Of a stretch of 43,547 nt of DNA, positions 5,505-18,723 are shown piece by piece. Within the stretch, counting starts at the first letter, position 1. Every line of letters starts with the position of its first letter. The stretch lies in NCBI GenBank assembly GCA_021781555.1, contig JAJXWQ010000024.1:1-43547 (forward strand), in the 5' to 3' direction. The notes under the pieces were generated by a model. It saw only the letters and a program-made list of their open reading frames with translations, was not told the DNA's origin and made no database searches. The DNA comes from a bacterium. GTDB lineage: Bacteria > Cyanobacteriota > Sericytochromatia > S15B-MN24 > VGJW01. The position numbers and the translations under genes are program-made.

Positions 5505-5837
5505 ATGCACGAGCTTTCGATCGCACAGGAGATCATGCGCATGGTCTTCGAGAACGCCGGCGCGGCCAGGGTCGTGCGGATCGGGATCGACATCGGCGAC
5601 CTTACCGGATTCGAGCCGGACGCGCTGGCATTTTGCCTCGAGGCACTGATCGACCCTACGACGGCGGCAGGGGCGACCATCGACCTCGTCCGGATTCCCG
5701 GGAGCGGCTTCTGCCACACCTGCACCCGCGAGGTCGCTCTGGCCAGGCGCTACGACGCCTGTCCGGAGTGCGGCGGGCTCGACATCGATCTGCGCGGGGG
5801 ACGCGAACTGCGGTTGCGAGAACTGGAGGTTGAGTGA
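5505..5837 (+). CDS. hypA: Hydrogenase nickel-insertion accessory protein HypA
   Basis: 110 residues, normal for HypA. It starts with the invariant MHELSI, whose N-terminal amine and His2 bind Ni. Two zinc CxxC pairs follow: CHTC (about 71-74) and CPEC (about 86-89). HypA and HypB together deliver nickel to the hydrogenase large-subunit precursor. The stop lies 1 bp before the hypB ATG. The other Hyp proteins (HypC, D, E, F) that make and insert the Fe(CN)2CO group are not encoded in this window. Confidence 0.97.
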   Translation: MHELSIAQEIMRMVFENAGAARVVRIGIDIGDLTGFEPDALAFCLEALIDPTTAAGATIDLVRIPGSGFCHTCTREVALARRYDACPECGGLDIDLRGGRELRLRELEVE

Positions 5838-5838
5838 G

Positions 5839-6678
5839 ATGTGCACGACATGCGGTTGCGGGGGCTCGTCGGACGATGACCGGGCGGATCCCGGTCATGA
5901 CGCTCACCACGCCCACGGCGAGGAGCACGACGCTAGCCATCCGCATGACCACGGACACACCCACGACCATGCGACAGACCCCGACCCCGAGAGTGCCGCG
6001 GCTCGACGTCGCCTGATCCAGGTCGAGCAAGACGTCCTGGGCCGCAACAACGGAATCGCGGCCCTGAACCGCCAGGACTTCTCGCGCCGGGGCATCGTCG
6101 CCCTGAACTTCGTGTCGAGCCCTGGATCCGGCAAGACCACCCTGCTTTGCAAGACGATCGAGGCCCTCAAGGCCGACGCCCCGATCACGGTCATAGAGGG
6201 CGACCAGCGGACCTCGTACGACGCCGAGCGCATCCGCTCGACGGGCATCCCGGCCTTCCAGGTCAACACGGGCAAGGCCTGCCATCTCGATGCCGCGATG
6301 GTCCGGCACGCGATCGACCACCTCGGCCCGACCCAAGGATCGTTCCTCTTCATCGAAAACGTCGGCAACCTGGTCTGCCCCGCGGAGTTCGACCTGGGGG
6401 AGCAGGCGAGGATCGTCATCCTTTCGGTCACCGAGGGAGACGACAAGCCTCTGAAGTACGCCCCGATCTTCGCAGCATCCGACGTGCTGATCCTGAACAA
6501 GATCGACCTCGCTCCGTACGTCGACTTCGATATTCCACGCTGCATCGCATACGCTCGGGAACTTCGTCCCGATATCGAGGTCTTCAAGCTGTCTTCCCGC
6601 ACGGGCGCGGGCCTCGAGAACTGGATCGCCTGGCTGCGGGCGAGAGTGGTTCGACAGGAGGCCCCTGCGACCCGCTGA
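5839..6678 (+). CDS. hypB: Hydrogenase nickel-insertion GTPase HypB
   Basis: 279 residues. The N-terminus MCTTCGCG is the high-affinity Ni site (CxxCGC). A His/Asp-rich stretch follows (about residues 20-50: repeated HDH, HAH), a nickel store found in some HypB proteins. The SIMIBI-class GTPase domain has P-loop SSPGSGKTT, the switch region EGDQRTSYDAERI, IENVGNLVCPAEFD with the metal-binding Cys, and the guanine-specificity motif LNKIDL. The ATG at 5839 lies 9 nt after GGAGG and 1 bp after the hypA stop; a TTG at 5830 is possible but less well placed. Confidence 0.96.
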   Translation: MCTTCGCGGSSDDDRADPGHDAHHAHGEEHDASHPHDHGHTHDHATDPDPESAAARRRLIQVEQDVLGRNNGIAALNRQDFSRRGIVALNFVSSPGSGKTTLLCKTIEALKADAPITVIEGDQRTSYDAERIRSTGIPAFQVNTGKACHLDAAMVRHAIDHLGPTQGSFLFIENVGNLVCPAEFDLGEQARIVILSVTEGDDKPLKYAPIFAASDVLILNKIDLAPYVDFDIPRCIAYARELRPDIEVFKLSSRTGAGLENWIAWLRARVVRQEAPATR

Positions 6679-6864: not shown

Positions 6865-7380
6865 ATGCCGGAGCTAGCCGCAGAGCGTGCGGCCCTGCAA
6901 GAGTCCATGACGTTTCTCGGCGCCATCGCAGGCGGGCTCGAGCAAGCCCTCGGCGAGTCGGCAAACGATATCTCCTACCTCGCCGGCAAACGTCTGGGCA
7001 TCAAGCTTTCCGCCGACGCGCCCCGCGCCGCCGACCTCGAATCTGCCCTGGAGACCGTCCGCCAGTTGCTCGTCGACAACGGTTGCCTGTGGCACTTCGA
7101 GACCTTCAAGCCCCACGATCGGGTCGATCTCGTCGAGGTCACGGACGCCGGTGAGAATATCTTGCTCGTCTTCCGCGATTGCATGATCCGGCAGTCGCTG
7201 TTCCGGTTCGGCCACCCGCAAAAGGGCTCGCTTTGCCGCCTGATGTACGGCTTCTTCGCCGGAGCCCTGTACAACATCCTGGGCGAGGATTCGACCCTGG
7301 ACATCATCCACGCCGGAGAGAACGCCTGCCTCAAGCAGCTCACCATCCACCGGACCTGCCGCCAGGAACTCGCCTCTTGA
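6865..7380 (+). CDS. V4R-like small-molecule-binding domain protein (first copy)
   Basis: 171 residues. The C-terminal half (about 95-162) has the V4R (4-vinyl reductase) pattern. A strand is followed by FRDCMIR (103-109), then GSLCRLMYGFFAGALYNILG (121-140, a helix like the 'G..aG.l..ilG' helix of the family), then the final strand with GENACLKQL. V4R domains are known as ligand-binding or regulatory modules; the ligand here is unknown. It shares three Cys positions (106, 124, 155) with the second copy at 9995-10453, so the two are paralogues. The ATG at 6865 has AAAGGG 7 nt upstream; a GTG at 6844 is an alternative. It heads the hydrogenase structural operon and its stop overlaps the TTG start of the small subunit (TTGA). 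Confidence 0.65.
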   Translation: MPELAAERAALQESMTFLGAIAGGLEQALGESANDISYLAGKRLGIKLSADAPRAADLESALETVRQLLVDNGCLWHFETFKPHDRVDLVEVTDAGENILLVFRDCMIRQSLFRFGHPQKGSLCRLMYGFFAGALYNILGEDSTLDIIHAGENACLKQLTIHRTCRQELAS

Positions 7381-8333
7381 GCCCGCAGACCACGGAAACC
7401 GACCGGACCATCACGCTCAATGCCGAATGGCTCAGCGACTGCTCGGGCTGCCACGTAGCCATCGTGGATCTTCACGAGAAGATCCTGGCAGTGCTACAGT
7501 CCGTCCGCATCCAGCACTTTCCGGTGCTGACGGATATCAAGGACTATCCCAAGGCAACCATCGGCATCGTCTCGGGCGCCATCCGCACCGAACATGATCG
7601 CCAGGCGGCCGAGGCCATGCGAGCGAGCTGCGATCTCATCATCGCCTGGGGGTCCTGCGCGGTCTACGGAGGCATTTCGGGAGCGGGCAACCTGCACGCG
7701 CCCGAGGATCTCCTTAAGGCGGTCTACACCGAAAACAAGACCACCTCACCCCACCCGGGACCCAGCCGGGAGGTCTCGCCCCTGCGCCCGGTGGTGACGC
7801 CGCTCGACCAGGTCATCGACGTCGACCTCTACATGCCGGGGTGCGCGCCGCATCCCACCTTGATCTTCGAGGCCCTGACGGCTCTGGTCGAGGGCCGTAC
7901 TCCGATCGCGACCCAGGAGTCCGTCTGCGGTCGCTGCACGCGGACGATGCAAAAGACCGAGGTCGACTGCATCCGCCGTCCCTCGGAAGGCCTACCCGAC
8001 CGCGAGCTGTGCTTCTTGAGCCAGGGCTACCTGTGCATGGGCTCGGCGACCCTCGATCGCTGCATGTCGCCGTGCCCGCAGAACGGCATCCCCTGCTCGG
8101 GCTGCGCGGGGGCCACGATGCGCGTCCTGACCGAGCCCAACCGCGATATCCGCACCGAGATCGCCGAGCGCATGGCGCGTCTCACGAGCATTCCCCGGGA
8201 AGCGATCGTCAAGGAAATCGAGCGCAACGCCAAGACCCACTATTCCTACACCATGGCCACGGCGATGATCGGCGAGAAGCCAACCTTCCTGATCCGGCAG
8301 TGGCTGGCCGACGCAGAGGCGGACCATGACTAG
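7377..8333 (+). CDS. [NiFe]-hydrogenase small subunit, group 3 type
   Basis: Carries electrons between the NiFe site and the ferredoxin through Fe-S clusters. The start is TTG at 7377, overlapping the upstream stop, with AGGA 9 nt before it; this gives 318 residues. Fe-S ligands are the proximal-cluster pair DCSGC (Cys 22 and 25), WGSCAVYGG, and MPGCAPHP. Then comes the Cys-rich region of cytoplasmic group 3 enzymes (FrhG/MvhG/HyhS): ESVCGRC, FLSQGYLCMG, DRCMSPCPQNGIPCSGCAG. There is no Tat signal, so it is cytoplasmic. It ends 8 bp inside the large-subunit gene. The closest group by motif is 3 (3b/3c-like); subgroup assignment needs phylogeny. Confidence 0.93.
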   Translation: MSPQTTETDRTITLNAEWLSDCSGCHVAIVDLHEKILAVLQSVRIQHFPVLTDIKDYPKATIGIVSGAIRTEHDRQAAEAMRASCDLIIAWGSCAVYGGISGAGNLHAPEDLLKAVYTENKTTSPHPGPSREVSPLRPVVTPLDQVIDVDLYMPGCAPHPTLIFEALTALVEGRTPIATQESVCGRCTRTMQKTEVDCIRRPSEGLPDRELCFLSQGYLCMGSATLDRCMSPCPQNGIPCSGCAGATMRVLTEPNRDIRTEIAERMARLTSIPREAIVKEIERNAKTHYSYTMATAMIGEKPTFLIRQWLADAEADHD

Positions 8334-9747
8334 GACGATCCGCATCGACCCCGTGACCCGCATCGAAGGCCACGCGAAGGTCTTTCTCGAACTCGACGAG
8401 GATGGCGAGATCGCGTCGGCCGGCCTGGTGGTCAACGAGCTGCGCGGATTCGAGCGCATCCTGGTGGGGATGGCCGCCGAGCAAATGCCGCTCGTCACGG
8501 CTCGCATCTGCGGCGTCTGCCCTACGGCACACCACCTGGCCGCGACCGATGCCCTCGAACATGCCGCCGGGGTGACGCCGCCGCCCGCCGCGAAGCTCTT
8601 GCGCGAGCTCATGTACATGGGCCACCTGATCCATTCCCACACCCTATCTTTGTTCGTCTTGCAGGGCCCGGACCTGATCATGGGGCTCGACGCCGACCCG
8701 GCGGTACGCAACATCGTAGGGGTCGTCCAGGCCAACCCGGATGCGGCCAAGAAGGCCCTGCGCTGCCGCTCGCTCGGCCAGAAGATCAACGAACTCGTCG
8801 GTGGACGCGGGACCCACCCGGTGACCTCCGTGGCTGGCGGCATCACCTTCGAGCTGGACGATTCCCGCCACAAGATGCTGAGCGGCTGGGCCGACGAGAC
8901 ACTGGCCCTGCTCTCCGAACTGGTGCCGCTGGCCAAGGGATTGTTGCTCCAGCAGATCGAGCTCCACCCGGCCTTGATGGCCGACTGGATCGTGCCGGCC
9001 TGGAGCCTCGGCACGGTCAAGGACGGCCGGATTTCCATGCTCGACGGCCCGCTGCGCGCGGTCGACGAAGCCGGCAACACCCGGCTCGAGTTCCCGGCCG
9101 AGGCCTACGATGGGCACCTGGAGGAGTCCGTGATCGAGTGGTCCTACATGAAGCAGGTCCACATCAAAGACGGCGATCGGCACCACGAGTATCGTGTCGG
9201 CCCCATGGCCCGCATCAATGTCGGAGGCACGTATGGCACTCCGCTGGCCGACGCCGAGCTCGCCACGCTCCGAGAATTGGGCGGCCAGCCCTGCCACGCA
9301 GTCGTGCTGCAGACCTATTCGAGGCTCATCGAGCTGCTTTACGCCGCAGAGCGGGCCCAGGAAATCCTGCGCGATCCGGCTCTCGGCGGGCCGACGCGCG
9401 TGCCGGTGCAATTCACCGGCGGACGGGGAGTCGGCCACGTCGAAGCCCCGCGCGGTACGCTCATCCACGACTACGAGATCGACGATCAGGGCCTCGTCCG
9501 CTCTGCCAACCTCATCGTCGCCACGCAGCAGAACTACGCGTCGATCAACCGCGTGATCGCCCAGGCCGCAGCCTCGCACGTTCTTGGCAAGGCGGACGAC
9601 GCAGCGCTGCTCAACGCCGTGGAGTTCGGCATTCGCTGCTTCGACCCCTGCCTCTCGTGCGCAACCCATGCCCTCGGGGAGATGCCCATGGAGATCGCCA
9701 TCACCCGCGACACCCAGGTGGTGCGTCGCATCACGAGGGCCGATTGA
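8326..9747 (+). CDS. [NiFe]-hydrogenase large (catalytic) subunit, group 3 type
   Basis: 473 residues; holds the NiFe(CN)2CO site that splits or forms H2. The N-terminal signature is RICGVCPTAHH (60-70, Cys 62 and 65) and the C-terminal signature DPCLSCATH (440-448, Cys 442 and 445), so all four metal-binding Cys are present. After His448 a 25-residue tail (ALGEMPMEI...) should be removed by the peptidase encoded three genes downstream. VTRIEGH at 10-16 is typical. The DPCLSCATH ending and short small subunit fit cytoplasmic group 3 hydrogenases. No diaphorase (HoxFU), flavin subunit (HyhG), MvhD or Hdr gene is nearby, so the usual electron acceptor for this group is not encoded here. Confidence 0.95.
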   Translation: MTRTIRIDPVTRIEGHAKVFLELDEDGEIASAGLVVNELRGFERILVGMAAEQMPLVTARICGVCPTAHHLAATDALEHAAGVTPPPAAKLLRELMYMGHLIHSHTLSLFVLQGPDLIMGLDADPAVRNIVGVVQANPDAAKKALRCRSLGQKINELVGGRGTHPVTSVAGGITFELDDSRHKMLSGWADETLALLSELVPLAKGLLLQQIELHPALMADWIVPAWSLGTVKDGRISMLDGPLRAVDEAGNTRLEFPAEAYDGHLEESVIEWSYMKQVHIKDGDRHHEYRVGPMARINVGGTYGTPLADAELATLRELGGQPCHAVVLQTYSRLIELLYAAERAQEILRDPALGGPTRVPVQFTGGRGVGHVEAPRGTLIHDYEIDDQGLVRSANLIVATQQNYASINRVIAQAAASHVLGKADDAALLNAVEFGIRCFDPCLSCATHALGEMPMEIAITRDTQVVRRITRAD

Positions 9748-9998
9748 TGGTCCGGATGACCCTCCACGAGCGGGCCTGCCGGGGCTGCGAGATGTGCGTC
9801 GACATCTGTCCGACCCAGGTCTTCTCGTACGACCGCGAGCGCCGAATCGCGGTCATCGATCACGAGGAAGACTGCATCGCCTGCCTGAGCTGCAGCTATC
9901 TCTGCCCTTCGGGAGCCCTGCAGCACGACGACTATCCGGTGGTCAAGAACTTCTACCGGGACCTCGAGTTCACCCGCAAGATCGAGAAGTTCCTATGA
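9747..9998 (+). CDS. Small 2x[4Fe-4S] ferredoxin-like protein
   Basis: 83 residues with two complete cluster motifs, CRGCEMCVDICP (about 11-22) and CIACLSCSYLCP (about 43-54). The C-terminal tail (about 60-83) is basic. The start overlaps the large-subunit stop (TGATG) and the stop overlaps the next start (ATGA), so it is made together with the hydrogenase and is its most likely electron partner. Whether it passes electrons to a metabolic acceptor or only to the neighbouring signalling proteins cannot be read from the sequence. Confidence 0.92.
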   Translation: MVRMTLHERACRGCEMCVDICPTQVFSYDRERRIAVIDHEEDCIACLSCSYLCPSGALQHDDYPVVKNFYRDLEFTRKIEKFL

Positions 9999-10453
9999 AC
10001 TCCGCAAAGGACCGAGAACTCACGCGGGAAGACCACCGTAAGGCGTTTGCCGAGGTGTCCTTCCTGATGGAGATGTTCACCACCACGATCGACCAGATCA
10101 TGGGGGGCGCCACCGCGCCCGTCGGGCGTATCGCCGGCCGCGAGATGGCCCGCAAACTGCCCGTCTACCTTTGCAAGCCCACGCTGGCCGAAGTCGTCGA
10201 CGAGCTCGCGGAGCGCATGCGGGGCGGGTTTGATTTCCACCTGATGAAGTCCGACGCGGGCCAGGACCTGGTCTTCGATCGCTGCCTCATCCGCGAGGTC
10301 TGCCGTGCGCGAGGCCTGACCCAGGGCGGTCCGACGTGCAGCCTGTTCCATTCATACCTGGACGGGCAGATCGACGAGCTCCTGGCCCGCCCGGTCAAGT
10401 CCGAGCTGATGGCCAGGGGCGAATCCTGCCGGGCCAGGCTCAGTACCCAGTGA
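9995..10453 (+). CDS. V4R-like small-molecule-binding domain protein (second copy)
   Basis: 152 residues. A helical N-terminus (about 14-55) leads into a V4R-type C-terminal half with FDRCLIR (94-100), GGPTCSLFHSYLDGQIDELL (111-130) and a final strand with RGESCRARL. It aligns with the protein at 6865-7380, including Cys 97, 115 and 145 against Cys 106, 124 and 155. Overall identity is low, so the duplication is old or the copies have specialised. The start overlaps the ferredoxin stop (ATGA) and the stop overlaps the peptidase start (GTGA). A ligand or Fe-S/zinc-binding regulatory role is inferred. Confidence 0.6.
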   Translation: MNSAKDRELTREDHRKAFAEVSFLMEMFTTTIDQIMGGATAPVGRIAGREMARKLPVYLCKPTLAEVVDELAERMRGGFDFHLMKSDAGQDLVFDRCLIREVCRARGLTQGGPTCSLFHSYLDGQIDELLARPVKSELMARGESCRARLSTQ

Positions 10454-10956
10454 CCCTCGCGACGGCCGCGTCCACGCTGGTTTGCTGCATCGGCAACGAC
10501 CTGGTGGCGGACGATGGCGTGGCATGCCGGGTTTTCGAGAGACTGCAGGCGCTCGAGCTTCCCGGGTCGCCCCGGGTGGAGCAGGTCGGCGTCGGAGGCC
10601 TCGACCTGCTGGAGCTGCTGACCGGAGCGGAAGGCTCGCTGGTCGTGGTGGATGCGGTTCAGTTCGGCGCGCCGCCTGGCACGGTGCACTGCCTCGACTG
10701 GCAGGATCTCCCGGCGGCCCGGGGCATGGCGGTGTCGGCCCATGCCATCGGGCTGCGCGAGACCGTCGAGGTGGGGAAGGTGGTCTGCCCCGACAAGCTC
10801 CCGTCCAGGATCGTGCTCGTCGGCATCGAGGGGCGCCGGTTCGACGAACTCGGGGGCGCCATGACTCCCGAGACCGCAGCCGCCGTCGACACCGCGGCCC
10901 GGCGGGTGCGGGATCTGCTGTTCACTTTCGAGCAGGAGGCTGAAGTTGACGAGTGA
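10450..10956 (+). CDS. Hydrogenase maturation endopeptidase (HyaD/HybD/HycI family)
   Basis: 168 residues from a GTG start at 10450 that overlaps the previous stop. The family removes the C-terminal tail of the large subunit after nickel insertion. Seen here: CIGNDLVADDG near the N-terminus (the GxGNxLxxDDG motif; the first Ni ligand, usually Glu, would be Asp), VVVDAVQFG (Asp ligand) and SAHAIGL (His ligand), at the usual spacing. Its presence agrees with the 25-residue tail on the large subunit in the same operon. Its last codons overlap the start of the chemoreceptor-like gene. Confidence 0.92.
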   Translation: MTLATAASTLVCCIGNDLVADDGVACRVFERLQALELPGSPRVEQVGVGGLDLLELLTGAEGSLVVVDAVQFGAPPGTVHCLDWQDLPAARGMAVSAHAIGLRETVEVGKVVCPDKLPSRIVLVGIEGRRFDELGGAMTPETAAAVDTAARRVRDLLFTFEQEAEVDE

Positions 10957-12535
10957 CGATGCGGTCGCCACGGCACCGAACTGCCATGCGGAGATCCAGC
11001 GCCTGGCCGCGGCCGTGCGCCAGGGCCAGCTGGACGCTCGTGCCGACGCGACCGGGTTCCAGGGCCAGGACGCGACCACGGTCACGGCCGTCAACGAAAT
11101 GCTCGACGCCCTGGTCGTCCCGCTGCGCGTGGCTGCCGGGGCCATCGACGAGCTGGCACGCGGGCGGATCCCGCGTTTCCTGCTGGACGAGCAGGTGGGC
11201 CAGGACAACGAGCTCAAGCGCAACCTCAACACCCTGCTGGCGACACTTTACGGCATGCACCACGAGACCCGTCACCTCGTGGCCAACATCCGCCTGGGCA
11301 AGCTGCACTACCGTGGCAATGACTGGGACTACGAAGGCATCTGGCGCGAGCTCATCGCCGGGGTCAACAGCGCCCTCGACGCGGTGATCGCCCCGGTCAG
11401 CGAAGCCAGCTCGATCCTCGGCCGCCTGGCCGGCTACGACCTCGCGGCGCGCATGCGGGGGCGCTATCGGGGCGATCATGCCGAGATCAAGAAGGCCATG
11501 AACCTGACGGCCGAGTCGCTTCACAGCGCCATCGCCCACGTCGCCGAGACGGTCACGGTGGTCTCCGTGGTGGGCGCCGACATCTCGCAGAGCAGCCAGG
11601 CCATGTCGGAAGGTGCCGCCGAACAGGAGCGCCAGATCGCCCAGGCGACCGAGCAGCTCGAACTCATTTCGGAGACGTCCAGCCAGGCCACCGTGAGCGT
11701 GCACGAGGCGCAGCGCAATGCCCGGGAAGCCGCCGAGGTCATCGCCCGCAGCAAGGACGCCATGGCGCAGATGCTGACCACCATGGGGGAGATCGTTTCC
11801 TCGGCGGACAACACCGCCACCATCATCCAGACCATCGATGCCATCGCCAAGGAGACCGACACCCTGTCCTCGAGCGCATCGGAGAAGGCCAGGACGGTGC
11901 GTTCATCGGCCAGCGGCTTCAGCGTGGTGGCCGGCACGATCGGGGATCTCTCGGAGCGCTGCGAGGCTGCCGTCCACGCCCTTGGCCGGCTTCGCCGCGG
12001 TCAGCAGGCGCTGGATGAGGACGACGCAGACGACGCCGCGGACGACGAACTCAAGGGCATCTTGAAGAACCTGCGGGAGGTCACCAACATCACCGAACTG
12101 CTGGGCTTGAACGCGGCGATCGAGGCGGCGCACGTCGAGGGCGCGGGCTTCGACTTCGCGGCGCTGACCGAGGAGATCCGCACACTCGCACAGCGATCCG
12201 CCGATGCCACGCGGCGGACCGAGCAGCTCATCCAGACCTCCATTTCCCTGGCGCACAAGGGGAAATCCCTGGCCGAGGTCATCGACAAGCTGCTCGTCGA
12301 TGCGGTGAACAGTGCGGCGGCGATCGGGCGGATAACCGACCGGATCTCCAAGGCGAGCGACGAACAAGCCGCGGCGGTCGGGCAGATCAGCCAGGCGACG
12401 TCCCGGATCAACGACGTCACGCACCGGAACGCGGCCAGCGCCCGGGCGTCCTCGGCCGACGCAGTCGACCTCGAGGGCCACGTGCAGAAGCTTGCCGCGA
12501 TGGTCGAGAAGTTCCGGCTCGAGGCGGCCAGCTGA
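10946..12535 (+). CDS. Soluble poly-HAMP methyl-accepting chemotaxis-like protein
   Basis: 529 residues with no signal peptide or membrane segment. The first ~195 residues read as four consecutive HAMP-like units (about 14-60, 60-105, 107-150, 152-195; e.g. AVRQGQLDARA, ELARGRIPRFL, NIRLGKLHYRG). The rest is a long coiled coil of the MCP signalling type. The receptor tip is recognisable at 371-430 (LLGLNAAIEAAH...GAGFDFAALTEEIRTLAQRS) but diverged. Residues 285-345 look like a second, more degenerate tip (IIQTIDAIAKETDTL...SGFSVVAGTIGDLSERC), the two joined by an acidic linker (DEDDADDAADDE, 357-368). The TTG start has a perfect AGGAGG 6 nt upstream inside the peptidase gene, so it is coupled to the hydrogenase operon. 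By family it would signal to CheA/CheW; no che genes are in the window. Confidence 0.85.
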   Translation: MTSDDAVATAPNCHAEIQRLAAAVRQGQLDARADATGFQGQDATTVTAVNEMLDALVVPLRVAAGAIDELARGRIPRFLLDEQVGQDNELKRNLNTLLATLYGMHHETRHLVANIRLGKLHYRGNDWDYEGIWRELIAGVNSALDAVIAPVSEASSILGRLAGYDLAARMRGRYRGDHAEIKKAMNLTAESLHSAIAHVAETVTVVSVVGADISQSSQAMSEGAAEQERQIAQATEQLELISETSSQATVSVHEAQRNAREAAEVIARSKDAMAQMLTTMGEIVSSADNTATIIQTIDAIAKETDTLSSSASEKARTVRSSASGFSVVAGTIGDLSERCEAAVHALGRLRRGQQALDEDDADDAADDELKGILKNLREVTNITELLGLNAAIEAAHVEGAGFDFAALTEEIRTLAQRSADATRRTEQLIQTSISLAHKGKSLAEVIDKLLVDAVNSAAAIGRITDRISKASDEQAAAVGQISQATSRINDVTHRNAASARASSADAVDLEGHVQKLAAMVEKFRLEAAS

Positions 12536-12611
12536 ACCGGGAGGCCCGAAAGACTCGTCACCCTCGCCCTTGAGCTGCCGGGGTTTCGGGAGCTGCATGA
12601 AGGATCGCTTC

Positions 12612-13319
12612 ATGGCAGACGATCTTCATGACCCCGCACCCACGGCGGCGCAACCTCCTCGTATCGAGCAGACGCTGGAGGTGGCCGCCTTTCTCTTTCT
12701 CATCGTGCCTGGCCTGGCACTGTCCTACTTCGTCAAGGGGCCAGCCAGCCTGCGCTTCGAGTTGCTGGCCGTGTCCACGGTCCTGCGAGACCTCTCGCTC
12801 GTGGCACTCCTCTTGTTCTTCCTCTGGCGCAACCGGGAGCCCTTTTCCTGGATCGGCCTGACCCACCGGAACCTGCTCGGAGAGGCGCTGCTCGGGGTCC
12901 TGCTCTACGTGCCATTCGCCTTCATTACCGGCTGGCTGGAGCGGGTCTTCGAGCGGAGCGGGTTGTCGGCGCCCGGGCCCTCTTCCCCCTTCGCCTTCCG
13001 GGGGACCGGCGATCTTGCCCTGGCCATCTTCATGGTCGTCGTCGTGGCGATCGCCGAGGAGGCGATCTTCCGGGGCTACCTCCTGCGGCGATTCATCGCC
13101 ATCACGGGGAGCGCGACATTTTCCGTGGTGCTGTCCACGGTGATCTTCGCCCTGGGCCACGGATACGAGGGCACGGCCAGCGTGCTGACGGTCGGAGTGA
13201 TGGGGCTCTTCCTGGCCGTCCTGTATCTCTGGCGCCGCAGCCTGGTGGCCCCCATCGTCCTGCACTTCCTGCAGGATTTCATCGCCATCGTCCTGGTACC
13301 GCTGGCCCATACCCGGTGA
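12612..13319 (+). CDS. CPBP-family intramembrane metalloprotease
   Basis: 235 residues, six to eight hydrophobic segments. The CAAX protease and bacteriocin-processing (CPBP/Abi) motifs are EEAIFRGYL (motif 1, EExxxR), FALGHGYEG (motif 2) and HFLQDF (motif 3, HxxxD). The family cleaves proteins within the cytoplasmic membrane; bacterial substrates are mostly unknown. The ATG at 12612 has AAGGA 7 nt upstream; an ATG at 12597 is also possible. It follows the chemoreceptor-like gene by 76 bp on the same strand and may be the last gene of the operon, though nothing functional links it to the hydrogenase. Confidence 0.85.
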   Translation: MADDLHDPAPTAAQPPRIEQTLEVAAFLFLIVPGLALSYFVKGPASLRFELLAVSTVLRDLSLVALLLFFLWRNREPFSWIGLTHRNLLGEALLGVLLYVPFAFITGWLERVFERSGLSAPGPSSPFAFRGTGDLALAIFMVVVVAIAEEAIFRGYLLRRFIAITGSATFSVVLSTVIFALGHGYEGTASVLTVGVMGLFLAVLYLWRRSLVAPIVLHFLQDFIAIVLVPLAHTR

Positions 13320-13400: not shown

Positions 13401-14027
13401 TTACCAAAGGCCCGCTCCGCACCCGAGCGCTCCGTAGCGGAGTCCCAGGCCGTAAGCCCCCATGCCGTAAGCTCCCATGCCGTAAGATCCCCGGCCGTAT
13501 GCTCCCAGGCCATAAGATCCCATGCCATAGGGCGCCAGCGAGCCGCAGCCTGCCGCCGCGAAGGGATAGCCCAGATAGCCGTAGCTCCCCAGGAACGGCG
13601 ACGAGGCCAGTGGCGACCAGAGACCCGCCCCGCCGAGGTAGTACGGAGCATAGTAATTCGCTCCGTAGTAGCTGAAGGGGTAGAAGCCGCCATAGCCGCG
13701 CCACCCCATGGCGCCCCACGGCGCCCCACCCCAGCCGAGGCCCCAGCCGCGGCCCAAACCAAAGGAGCCGAAACGCCCGAAGCGCCCCAGCCACGAGGTA
13801 TGCAGCTTGGAATTGTCGGCCGGCAGGAGGATCTTGCTCGCCGGGAACTTCACGAGCATCCTCTCGGCCTGCGCCCCGGTCAGGGTTGCAGGCAGGATCC
13901 TTACCAGCTCCGCTGGGGTTGGAATCTTCGGAGTCTTTTGCGACTGCACGTTCGCCGCTGGCGACGTGCCACATCCGACCAGCGCAATCATGGCCCCGAT
14001 GGCCACCGCGTGTTGCGCGTGAAACAT
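13401..14027 (-). CDS. Lipoprotein with Gly/Tyr/Met-rich repetitive C-terminus
   Basis: 208 residues. The signal peptide has lipobox LVGC (Cys19), so a lipid-anchored envelope protein is predicted. Residues 30-80 look folded or helical (LVRILPATLTGAQAERML). From about 85 on it is low complexity: first WG/FG/RG-rich, then YYGANYYAPYYLGG, and finally five or so copies of a five-residue unit of the form YGMGA (about 165-195), encoded by a 15-bp tandem repeat. Function unknown; such glycine-tyrosine tails occur in surface-exposed or adhesive proteins. The ATG at 14027 sits behind a purine-rich GAGAGGGGGTGA. Confidence 0.65.
   Translation of the reverse strand: MFHAQHAVAIGAMIALVGCGTSPAANVQSQKTPKIPTPAELVRILPATLTGAQAERMLVKFPASKILLPADNSKLHTSWLGRFGRFGSFGLGRGWGLGWGGAPWGAMGWRGYGGFYPFSYYGANYYAPYYLGGAGLWSPLASSPFLGSYGYLGYPFAAAGCGSLAPYGMGSYGLGAYGRGSYGMGAYGMGAYGLGLRYGALGCGAGLW
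13451..13531 (-). repeat. 15-bp tandem repeat within the lipoprotein gene
   Basis: Five imperfect 15-bp units (about 13451-13525) plus a partial one, each encoding one copy of the five-residue Tyr-Gly-Met/Leu-Gly-Ala/Ser unit. Unit number could vary between strains by slippage without shifting the frame. Confidence 0.75.
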
Positions 14028-15786: not shown

Positions 15787-15867
15787 TGCCTGAGAGGAGA
15801 CTCGAACTCCTACGCCTTGCGGCGCCAGATCCTAAGTCTGGTGCGTCTGCCATTCCGCCACTCAGGC
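15787..15867 (-). tRNA. tRNA-Leu(UAG)
   Basis: The complementary strand folds as a class II tRNA: acceptor GCCTGAG with CTCAGGC, a D-arm, anticodon stem CCAGA/TCTGG with loop CTTAGGA (anticodon TAG, decoding CUA/CUN Leu), a long variable arm CGCCGCAAGGCG, and T-arm AGGAG-TTCGAGT-CTCCT. The discriminator base is A, as in tRNA-Leu. The CCA end is not encoded. A TATACT-like -10 (15876-15881 read leftward) lies 8 bp upstream. Confidence 0.95.
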
Positions 15868-15963
15868 CCGGCTACAGTATACGGCCTGCGGTGCGGATCG
15901 AGCGGCACGGCCGAGCGGGCCTCCCGCGACAGCCGCGCTCGGTCCGCGGGCCGGTGAGGCAGG

Positions 15964-16071
15964 CTAGGCCTTTTGCAGCTTGAACGGGGCCCTCTGCGCG
16001 GTCGCTTCGCTGCGCAACCGGGCCCCGTTTGACTCATCGGGCTCGATCCATTCAAACCGGGAGCACTCTAG
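15964..16071. mobile_element. 108-bp CTAG-bounded palindromic element, copy D (MITE-like)
   Basis: Begins and ends with CTAG. Ten bases inside each end lies an inverted repeat, GTTTGAAYGG, and inside that a long GC-rich palindrome (AACGGGGCCC ... GGGCCCCGTT) with a further hairpin-forming centre. It is the inverse complement of copy E (17822-17929) with only two differences in 108 positions. The CTAG at 16068-16071 contains the TAG stop codon of the AAA ATPase gene. No coding capacity of its own. The symmetrical ends and short target-like CTAG fit a miniature inverted-repeat transposable element; some DDE transposases (IS630-type) are known to insert at CTAG with TA duplication. Confidence 0.7.
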
Positions 16072-17762
16072 ACTCCGAGCCGTTCGCGAAGTTCGACCAG
16101 GCGGGCGGCGAGGACGTCGTCCGAGATGTCGCGATAGCGCAAGGGGAGCAGGCGGCGGTTGGAGCACTCGAAGACGGCCAGGAGCTCCATGAACTCGGTC
16201 ATGGCCCGGTTGCGGTTGGGCACGAAATCCAAGATCGCCTCGAAGACGTCGTCCTCCGTGACGGCACGCCCGTTGCTCGCGGCAATCTCGTCGGCCAGCA
16301 ACACCAGAGCCTCGATCTCGGCCGCCGAATATCCCTCGGTCCGACGGCAGGCCTCGTCCCAGGCGAAGGACTCGCAGGCCAGGGCGTGCTTCTGGATCTG
16401 CGCTGCGAAGATGGCAGCGCGCTCGGCCTCCGATTGGGGATAGAAGAAGGGGATCTTGCGGTCGAAGCGGCCGGGACGCTTGAGGTCGATATCGAGCTTG
16501 TCCGGGCGGTTGCTCATCACCAGCCAGAGAATCTTGCCGCGGTGGGTCGTGTCGCTCATGAAGGCCTTGATCCGGGCGAAGACACGGCTAGAGACGCCCG
16601 AGTCGCCATCCTCGCCCGAGAGGGCTCGGTCGACCTCGTCGATCAGGATCATGACCGAGCCGAGGGCCTTGACGATGTTCAGGATCTTCTCGAGGTTGCC
16701 CTCGGTCGACCCCACCCACTTGTCGCGGAAGTTCTTGAGGGCCAGGCAGGTGAGGCCGGAATCCCTGGCGAAGGCCTCGGCCATGTAGGTCTTGCCGGTG
16801 CCCATCGGGCCGACGAAGAAGATCCCCATCGGGACGCGGCGCGTCACGCCCTCGCGAATGGCTCCGGCGATGCGCTGGAGGTCGCCCTTGACGGTTTCGA
16901 GCCCACCCACGGCATCGAGACCATGGGCCGGTTCGAGCAGCTCGACCAGGCCGAAGCACTCGGCCTCGAGGATCTCCTTGCGCTTGGCCGAGAGCATCCC
17001 CTCGTCGACGGGCCGGTCGGATCTGGCAGCCTGGCGCAAGATGGCCTCGATCTGGATCAGGCGGAGGCCCGAGGACAAACGGGCGATCGCCGCATCGGAC
17101 AGTTCGCGCCGGACGCCGAGCTGGTCGCCCACCGTGCGCACGAAGTCGAGGCGCGTGGACTGGTCGGGGAGGGGCACCTCGATGAGCTCGACCTGGGGAC
17201 TGCGGACGATGTGCTTGTTGACCTCGGTCACGTTCTCGGCAATCAGGAGAACGATGTTGTTGCTCTTGAGTAGAAGCGGGTCGTTGGCCCACCTCTCGAG
17301 CGTGATGAGGTGGGTCCGGTCGTCACTCCCGAGCATGGCGCCCTCGCCATCGGGGATCAGGGCCTCGACGTAGTCCACGACGATCCCGGCGCGCTGTCCG
17401 GGGATGGAGAGGAACCCCTCGATCACGGGCAGGGCCCGACGCGGCTCGCGCGGGAGCTCGGTGGGTGGCGCAAGGCCCAGGATCGAAGCCCGGACGGAAA
17501 GAGAGGTCATGAAGCGCTCGCGCATGGCGGGTGCCGGGAACCCGAATCCCTCGGAAAGGTCGTAGAAGGCCACGACGTCCTTGCTGGGTCCGAGCAGAGC
17601 CTCGTAGAGGAAGGTACGCAACGGCACGTACTCGCCCTTGAAGGGCACCAGATCGCGCACGTTGTTGTGAAGCAAAAACTGGATGGCGGCGCCGGAAAGA
17701 TAGTGGGAGCGCAGCTTTTCGGCCCAAGCCGGCAGCAAGCTCGTGGTGACGTTCTGGCTCAT
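16068..17762 (-). CDS. Classic AAA ATPase, Ycf46/Vps4-like
   Basis: 564 residues. The C-terminal AAA module is complete: Walker A GPMGTGKT (318-325), aromatic pore loop KWVG (348-351) as in Vps4/katanin-type ATPases, Walker B MILIDEVD (371-378), sensor 1 SN (417-418), arginine finger block RPGRFDRK (429-436), then a helical lid. The N-terminal half (about 1-260) looks like a degenerate AAA module without a P-loop (GIVVDYVEAL at 126-135 resembles a dead Walker B), a layout like Ycf46 of cyanobacteria and chloroplasts. Classic AAA proteins remodel or pull apart protein assemblies using ATP. It is the last gene of a leftward set with a membrane coiled-coil protein and a PspA-family protein. The ATG at 17762 is chosen; an open frame extends upstream through the repeat but has no support. 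Confidence 0.85.
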   Translation of the reverse strand: MSQNVTTSLLPAWAEKLRSHYLSGAAIQFLLHNNVRDLVPFKGEYVPLRTFLYEALLGPSKDVVAFYDLSEGFGFPAPAMRERFMTSLSVRASILGLAPPTELPREPRRALPVIEGFLSIPGQRAGIVVDYVEALIPDGEGAMLGSDDRTHLITLERWANDPLLLKSNNIVLLIAENVTEVNKHIVRSPQVELIEVPLPDQSTRLDFVRTVGDQLGVRRELSDAAIARLSSGLRLIQIEAILRQAARSDRPVDEGMLSAKRKEILEAECFGLVELLEPAHGLDAVGGLETVKGDLQRIAGAIREGVTRRVPMGIFFVGPMGTGKTYMAEAFARDSGLTCLALKNFRDKWVGSTEGNLEKILNIVKALGSVMILIDEVDRALSGEDGDSGVSSRVFARIKAFMSDTTHRGKILWLVMSNRPDKLDIDLKRPGRFDRKIPFFYPQSEAERAAIFAAQIQKHALACESFAWDEACRRTEGYSAAEIEALVLLADEIAASNGRAVTEDDVFEAILDFVPNRNRAMTEFMELLAVFECSNRRLLPLRYRDISDDVLAARLVELRERLGV

Positions 17763-17821
17763 GGGACCTCGATTGTACCCTTGCCATGCCACCCGCGCTG
17801 CGACCCGCTCTCGCGCAAGGC

Positions 17822-17929
17822 CTAGAGTGCTCCCGGTTTGAATGGATCGAGCCCGAGGAGTCAAACGGGGCCCGGTTGCGCAGCGAAGCGACCGCGCAGA
17901 GGGCCCCGTTCAAACTGCAAAAGGCCTAG
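17822..17929. mobile_element. 108-bp CTAG-bounded palindromic element, copy E (MITE-like)
   Basis: Opposite orientation to copy D and differing from it at two of 108 positions. Bounded by CTAG at 17822-17825 and 17926-17929; the latter contains the TAG stop codon of the upstream gene at 17926-18723. It lies inside a same-strand gene set, between that stop and the AAA ATPase start, so it could act as a partial terminator or processing site there. Confidence 0.7.
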
Positions 17930-18723
17930 CTGATCTGCTCGGCGATCAGGGCGCTGGTCTCGAGCAGGACTTCCTCGGTGATCTCCACGCCGCTGATGAT
18001 CTGGTCCAGATCCGTGCGGACGTTGTCCGGGGCGCGAAGGGAGACCATCTGATCGTCGATCAGGTGGAACGTGTCCTCGATGACGTCCAGCTGCGCCTGC
18101 ACGTTGAGATACCCCCGCTGGATCGCCACGAAGCGCTCCCGGCGCTTGTCGAGGATATCGAGGTTCTGCTGGAGGATCCGGCGGGTATCGGGGTCGGCCA
18201 TGCGATGGAGCGTGCCGCGCAGGTGCTCGATATCCTTGAGGATCGAACCCTCGTCCGTACGGTCGAGATACTGGCGGTAGCGCTGCGAGGCCGACAGCAG
18301 GCGGAGGAAGGCCGCCAGCAGAGCCTCGAGCTTGTCGAGCTCCTCGGCGAGCAGGTCGGCGGCAACGGCTCCGGCCTGCCGGGCTTCAGCCTGGATGCTG
18401 CTGCCGAGGCGGCGGACGGTCTCGTACCGGAGGGCGAGCTCGGGCGTGAGCAAGGAGAGCTGGCGCCGGATCTCGGCCTCCCGGGCCCGGACGAACCGGT
18501 CCCCCTCCCGGCGCCTTTGCAGGGCCTGGTAGCGAGGCAGGACGGGTGCGACCAGGAGCCAGATCGCCTCGAGCGCAGCGACGCCCGCACCACTCGCCCG
18601 AACGTGCCAGTGGAGCGTCATGACGTCCCAGGCCCAGGCCGCTCCGAGCAGGGCCCAAAGCCCCAGCTGGGCCGGCTCCCGGAGGGCGTCCCAGAGGCGC
18701 AAGCGGTAGTTTTGGCGCGGCAT
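17926..18723 (-). CDS. Membrane-anchored coiled-coil protein
   Basis: 265 residues. Two hydrophobic helices near the N-terminus (about 19-37 and 45-66) are followed by about 200 residues of charged heptad-like helix (e.g. LLAEELDKLEALLAAFLRLL), so it would sit in the cytoplasmic membrane with a long helical cytoplasmic part. No family recognised. It lies between a PspA-family gene (87 bp upstream) and an AAA ATPase gene (163 bp downstream), all leftward. A role as membrane adaptor between the two is inferred from order alone. Its TAG stop is part of the CTAG boundary of repeat copy E. Confidence 0.65.
   Translation of the reverse strand: MPRQNYRLRLWDALREPAQLGLWALLGAAWAWDVMTLHWHVRASGAGVAALEAIWLLVAPVLPRYQALQRRREGDRFVRAREAEIRRQLSLLTPELALRYETVRRLGSSIQAEARQAGAVAADLLAEELDKLEALLAAFLRLLSASQRYRQYLDRTDEGSILKDIEHLRGTLHRMADPDTRRILQQNLDILDKRRERFVAIQRGYLNVQAQLDVIEDTFHLIDDQMVSLRAPDNVRTDLDQIISGVEITEEVLLETSALIAEQIS

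Follow-up and report, generated by a model that had tools for sequence, protein, structure and literature searches.

The window analyzed here is a 43,547-nucleotide stretch of a bacterial genome, and on its plus strand, from position 6865 to 12535, lies a set of seven open reading frames (ORFs) built around a [NiFe]-hydrogenase (Table 1). In order, these encode a first V4R-like protein (V4Ra, P0001), the small and large hydrogenase subunits, a ferredoxin, a second V4R-like protein (V4Rb, P0005), a maturation protease, and a methyl-accepting chemotaxis protein (MCP), with overlapping junctions. This layout agrees with a preliminary description of the same DNA, which had proposed an H2-sensing or H2-taxis unit. 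The hydrogenase subunits, the HycI protease, the ferredoxin, and the HAMP_2 and MCPsignal domains of the receptor were identified by Pfam and NCBIfam, and no hydropathy peak strong enough for a transmembrane segment occurs in any of the seven proteins.

Table 1. Genes of the hydrogenase operon and the adjoining hypAB pair (window coordinates; aa, amino acids; AF2, AlphaFold2).
Feature	Position	Strand	Description and evidence
V4Ra	6865..7380	+	171-aa protein of predicted V4R fold; AF2 model, Foldseek, Cys/His conservation
[NiFe]-hydrogenase small subunit, MvhG/VhuG-like	7377..8333	+	TTGA, 4-bp overlap with V4Ra; NCBIfam, PDB match
[NiFe]-hydrogenase large subunit	8326..9747	+	8-bp overlap with small subunit; both CxxC motifs, C-terminal extension for maturation protease; Pfam, tree
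2[4Fe-4S] ferredoxin	9747..9998	+	TGATG junction with large subunit; Pfam/NCBIfam; one fused protein with V4Rb in clade II
V4Rb	9995..10453	+	ATGA junction with ferredoxin; 152-aa paralog of V4Ra, predicted V4R fold; AF2 model, Foldseek
HycI/HyaD-type hydrogenase maturation protease	10450..10956	+	GTGA junction with V4Rb; PF01750 E 1.9e-16; TIGR00072 above cut-off
Soluble poly-HAMP chemoreceptor (MCP)	10946..12535	+	11-bp overlap with protease; CAGGAGG directly 5′ of TTG start; HAMP_2 + MCPsignal
hypA	5505-5837	+	nickel-insertion gene, just upstream of module
hypB	5830-6678	+	nickel-insertion gene, just upstream of module

The large subunit carries both catalytic cysteine motifs, RICGVC and DPCLSCATH, and these are retained in all complete relatives with a readable large subunit (42 loci). 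A C-terminal extension of 23-28 aa is conserved as well. The small subunit has 12 cysteines for three [4Fe-4S] clusters, invariant in 45 of 45 alignment rows (44 relative loci plus the query), and its best PDB match is MvhG (5odc_E, 228 bits). VhuG and MvhG are its best matches, yet it scores under the curated VhuG cut-off, and MvhA is the second PDB match of the large subunit.

A genome scan with the C-terminal region of the small subunit returned 16 close relatives at 46-72% identity, beyond which the best matches fall to ~40% or less and are mostly methanogen Mvh/Vhu. The 44 relative loci (35 in clade I, seven in clade II, and two archaeal, some of them from near-identical species) span Desulfobacterota, Acidobacteriota, Eisenbacteria, and two archaea, in addition to this non-photosynthetic cyanobacterial relative. 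V4Ra adjoins the hydrogenase in all 44, and the order V4Ra-small-large-ferredoxin-V4Rb-protease is kept in every clade I and clade II locus that is sufficiently complete; in some loci of clade II, similarity did not reveal the protease. Such conservation of gene order across phyla is far beyond chance. Profile searches found V4Ra in 22 of 76 genomes of the Trichlorobacter family, in 5 of the 395 from its phylum, and in 4 of 396 from Acidobacteriota; this hydrogenase is encoded at each of the new loci that were retrieved, and in the genomes searched V4Ra was found nowhere else. Single-sequence searches of plasmids with V4Ra and V4Rb found nothing, and large- and small-subunit queries gave no relative among viral contigs. 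HdrA, MvhD, or HoxEFU homologs lie near none of the 44 loci, which extends to these loci the lack of HoxFU, MvhD, and Hdr partners first remarked on in the window, while in control loci the known partners do flank the 3c and 3d hydrogenases and MvhD/HdrA-type ORFs are shared by seven of nine. Neither of the patterns named beforehand as speaking against a sensory unit, V4R and MCP genes usually absent from relatives or a metabolic partner located alongside, was found. The hydrogenase, ferredoxin, and two V4R-like proteins are a widely conserved unit without an adjoining metabolic electron-acceptor module.

The large-subunit tree that the preliminary description had called for gives this subgroup a clade of its own. 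In a maximum-likelihood tree of 63 rows (L208-L210 are not among its rows and were assigned by identity and gene content only), the bacterial loci of clade I (support 99/98) and clade II (100/100) form one group (100/99) next to HoxH (93/90) and outside the group 3c rows. The 3d clade (100/100) excludes this large subunit; a large-subunit search of 98 relatives had first suggested ordinary HoxH kinship, but membership is rejected by the tree together with the small subunit. The archaeal large subunits (L069, L088) fall outside the bacterial group on long branches, and therefore the V4R association is either older than that group or arose more than once. Each of the two archaeal operons (L069:283-4879 and L088:8673-12375) contains a single V4R gene; in L069 a Roadblock protein directly follows the large subunit, and in L088 Cache-domain and histidine kinase genes lie nearby.

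Set against known systems, the enzyme combines features of several. It shares with group 3c (MvhAG/VhuAG with MvhD and HdrABC) an MvhG-type small subunit of ~300 aa with three clusters, but differs in the lack of MvhD/HdrA, the placement of its bacterial large subunits, and the presence of V4R proteins and an MCP. Group 3d (HoxEFUYH) contributes the sister clade, HoxH, at ~40% identity, whereas here V4R proteins and an MCP are found instead of the HoxEFU diaphorase, and the small subunit has two clusters more than HoxY. The large subunits of regulatory (group 2b) hydrogenases are not known to carry a processed C-terminal extension, unlike the one here, where both the extension and a dedicated protease are conserved. 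The regulatory hydrogenases HoxBC/HupUV, with the HoxJ kinase, are H2 sensors coupled to a signaling protein (PMC5665086, PMC6978683), and the role proposed for the present module is analogous, although it belongs to another hydrogenase group, adds a ferredoxin and V4R proteins, and would have an MCP rather than a histidine kinase as its output. The literature searched gave no description of V4R, MCP, or Roadblock proteins together with a hydrogenase, in keeping with the earlier remark that no described system of this composition was known.

The V4R label, also taken from the preliminary description, is weak by sequence and supported at the level of the predicted fold only. V4Ra scores 13.0 bits against the Pfam V4R cut-off of 31 (E=0.12), and V4Rb has no Pfam V4R match; its match to ATC_hydrolase (PF14196, E=3e-4) also lies under the curated cut-off. 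In Foldseek, the AF2 model of V4Ra (mean predicted confidence, pLDDT, 81) best matches the PoxR/MopR/DmpR sensor domain (prob 1.00, E 2.8e-6), and that of V4Rb (pLDDT 84) matches CesD/PoxR/MopR/TRAPP (prob 1.00). The two proteins are paralogs, and both carry conserved cysteines. In V4Ra, Cys106, Cys124, and Cys155 are invariant (45/45 rows), with His117 and His149 each present in 43 of 45; in V4Rb, Cys97, Cys103, Cys115, and Cys145 are kept in 40, 39, 40, and 40 of 40 loci. The zinc ligands of DmpR are Cys151, Glu172, Cys177, and Cys185 (PMC7264223). By our own positional comparison, the V4Ra residues Cys124 and Cys155, together with Asp/Glu146 and His149, have a spacing comparable to that of the DmpR ligands, the cysteines corresponding to DmpR Cys151 and Cys185, while Cys106 and His117 are extra relative to the DmpR set. 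The site might hold zinc or an Fe-S cluster, or its cysteines might pair in a disulfide. Unlike the PoxR/MopR/DmpR domains, V4Ra and V4Rb are a stand-alone pair linked to a hydrogenase, and their Cys/His set is both altered and enlarged.

The seventh gene encodes a receptor well above the family thresholds (PF00015, MCPsignal, 86 bits vs a cut-off of 34.6; PF18947, HAMP_2, 102 bits vs 24.3), with Aer2 as its best NCBIfam match. Two hairpin-tip motifs ~67 aa apart are conserved in all 26 aligned family sequences, the second of which keeps LGLNAAIEAA and has His at what we take to be the position of Tsr Arg388. Like Aer2-type soluble poly-HAMP receptors, the protein joins HAMP_2 repeats to an MCP signaling domain with no transmembrane segment, and in having two tips it resembles DosM of Vibrio cholerae, which PMC6978683 cites as a double-signaling-domain receptor. 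It differs from Aer2-like receptors and DosM in that its tips lie so close together in one short domain, that there is no PAS or heme domain, and that it always belongs to a hydrogenase operon. Of the 33 informative clade I loci, 27 have the MCP in seventh position, some of them in Eisenbacteria and Acidobacteriota, and the gap to the protease mostly lies between -21 and +2 nt. Full orthologs turned up at the operon only: eight genomes with the gene have it at the locus, and in eight others, whose hydrogenase loci are without the MCP, none was found. In the lineage of the window, the hydrogenase-ferredoxin-V4R unit has gained its own poly-HAMP chemoreceptor. The host genome also has eight flagellin matches and several CheA/CheW-type proteins.

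Clade II has no MCP. Instead, Roadblock/LC7 genes lie near all seven of its loci, often together with a histidine kinase and a response regulator carrying DUF4388, and in each of the seven the ferredoxin and V4Rb are fused in one protein (e.g., P0008), which supports a ferredoxin-to-V4R link. MCP and Roadblock matches are absent from 20 random windows taken from three host genomes. Because this sister clade has Roadblock/LC7 in place of the MCP, a second lineage lends weight to a sensory reading.

The operon is probably a cytoplasmic sensory [NiFe]-hydrogenase module, and we infer redox relay through the V4R proteins, control of motility, and H2-taxis itself. In this mechanism, the redox state of the ferredoxin and of the clusters in the small subunit would be set either by the oxidation of H2 at the NiFe center or by a reverse flow out of the ferredoxin pool. 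V4Ra and V4Rb would read that state as a pair, probably via their invariant Cys/His site, and change shape; the change would reach the soluble receptor's HAMP stack by protein contact, and the receptor would modulate CheA and hence swimming. In the sister clade, the same hydrogenase-V4R unit is instead associated with Roadblock/LC7 proteins and response regulators. In its fullest form, the proposal is of a dedicated H2-taxis system. A double-tip cytoplasmic chemoreceptor would have an unrecognized group-3-type hydrogenase subgroup as its sensory head, and the redox relay would be a V4R heterodimer carrying a metal or Fe-S site; in the sister lineage the same head would drive Roadblock/LC7-type control of motility or polarity. 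We advance this version tentatively, holding it somewhat less probable than its alternatives taken together. Several observations weigh against a sensory function. The MCP lacks a conserved cofactor site, and its contact with the hydrogenase is a proposal. Coupling to CheA is likewise a prediction, and the tip residues are partly altered: the second tip has His where Tsr has Arg388, which leaves the coupling unproven. The processed C-terminus and dedicated protease are retained as in turnover enzymes, and six Desulfobulbaceae-type loci have the hydrogenase and V4R genes with neither MCP nor Roadblock. Histidine kinases beside the Geobacter loci were rejected as support, as the random windows show them in Geobacter relatives about as often as the loci do. 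The six Desulfobulbaceae-type loci indicate that the hydrogenase-V4R core can work without an output and that the MCP is an output module, not an obligate part. The H2-sensing unit first proposed is partly supported: the clade II fusion strengthens the link from ferredoxin to V4R, and the sister clade's Roadblock/LC7 genes strengthen the sensory reading.

These same six loci, which keep the hydrogenase and V4R genes without a receptor, make a metabolic enzyme the main rival, and together with the retained protease they leave a metabolic role open. Here the enzyme would be a ferredoxin-linked hydrogenase for H2 uptake or fermentative H2 release, the V4R proteins would be structural or electron-transfer subunits, and the MCP would be an add-on energy-taxis receptor monitoring enzyme activity. 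The intact catalytic cysteines and C-terminal extension, the operon's own 2[4Fe-4S] ferredoxin, and the hypAB pair just upstream all suit such an enzyme, but a known electron-acceptor enzyme stands beside none of the 44 loci, the V4R folds are nearest to sensor domains, and clade II is associated with Roadblock and response-regulator genes; we consider it unlikely, at perhaps one case in four. It is more doubtful still that the two V4R proteins act as factors dedicated to assembling or maturing this hydrogenase subtype, with the MCP loosely linked and kept by translational coupling. The exclusive occurrence of V4Ra beside this hydrogenase in the genomes searched, and conserved Cys/His residues that could handle metal, would fit that role, but the V4Rb-ferredoxin fusion in all clade II loci suggests a permanent subunit, and the MCP is retained across phylum-wide distances. 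Geobacteraceae, to which many of the hosts belong, are known as aromatic degraders, and the nearest solved folds are phenol sensors, but a small hydrophobic or aromatic ligand, bound as in DmpR and MopR and gating the hydrogenase or the MCP in place of an H2 signal, is very improbable, given that the set of zinc ligands in DmpR (Cys, Glu, Cys, Cys; PMC7264223) is changed here, that the extra invariant Cys/His residues point to metal or redox chemistry, and that no aromatic-degradation genes were seen in the flanks scanned.

The host genome is 3.8 Mb and 98.65% complete. HoxH-bearing genomes occur in the phylum of its relatives, and its own class (18 genomes), within the cyanobacterial phylum, we take to be non-photosynthetic. 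Two more ORFs for [NiFe]-hydrogenase or related large subunits lie elsewhere in the genome (G000:C29:17449-18822 and G000:C119:8952-10091). Binning contamination was considered and rejected, as the window flanks match genomes of the same class and a genome of the same genus (G001) carries parts of the region. Contigs of G001 hold the hypAB region and MCP sequence at 84-89% identity, and the intervening stretch was not found in them; the operon is probably present in G001 but unassembled. The hypAB genes themselves are probably maturation genes outside the conserved module, the pair being detected in only one of 16 relatives checked (L060), there on the opposite strand. A CAAX-protease-type ORF (12606-13319) follows the MCP and is missing from the syntenic G001 contig, and is therefore not part of the module. 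Elsewhere in the window, an interspersed ~110-bp repeat forms an inverted pair (15963-16071 and 17822-17930, 98%) bracketing the ORF at 16068-17864; related copies lie at 87-246 and 342-434, and many more occur elsewhere in the genome and in G001. A minus-strand tRNA gene (15787-15867; Rfam RF00005, 56.9 bits) accounts for class-wide genome matches there, and a short stretch at 3281-3367 matches the DNA of other families of the class in several places, at 77-85%. A repeat of 15-bp period (13428-13544) lies inside the minus-strand ORF 13401-14027 and encodes a Gly/Tyr-rich repetitive protein segment.

Known H2-sensing hydrogenases of the HoxBC type act on transcription via a kinase. If the sensory reading is true, a hydrogenase subgroup with its own chemoreceptor would link H2 or the ferredoxin redox state directly to movement, and because the module is found in cultured Geobacteraceae, such as Trichlorobacter thiogenes, this can be tested. 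With this subgroup, the hydrogenase tree gains a V4R-bearing branch beside HoxH, and one may ask whether V4R proteins can be redox relays. Its distribution suggests that cells of several phyla may steer by H2 or by their internal redox state through a kind of sensor not previously described.

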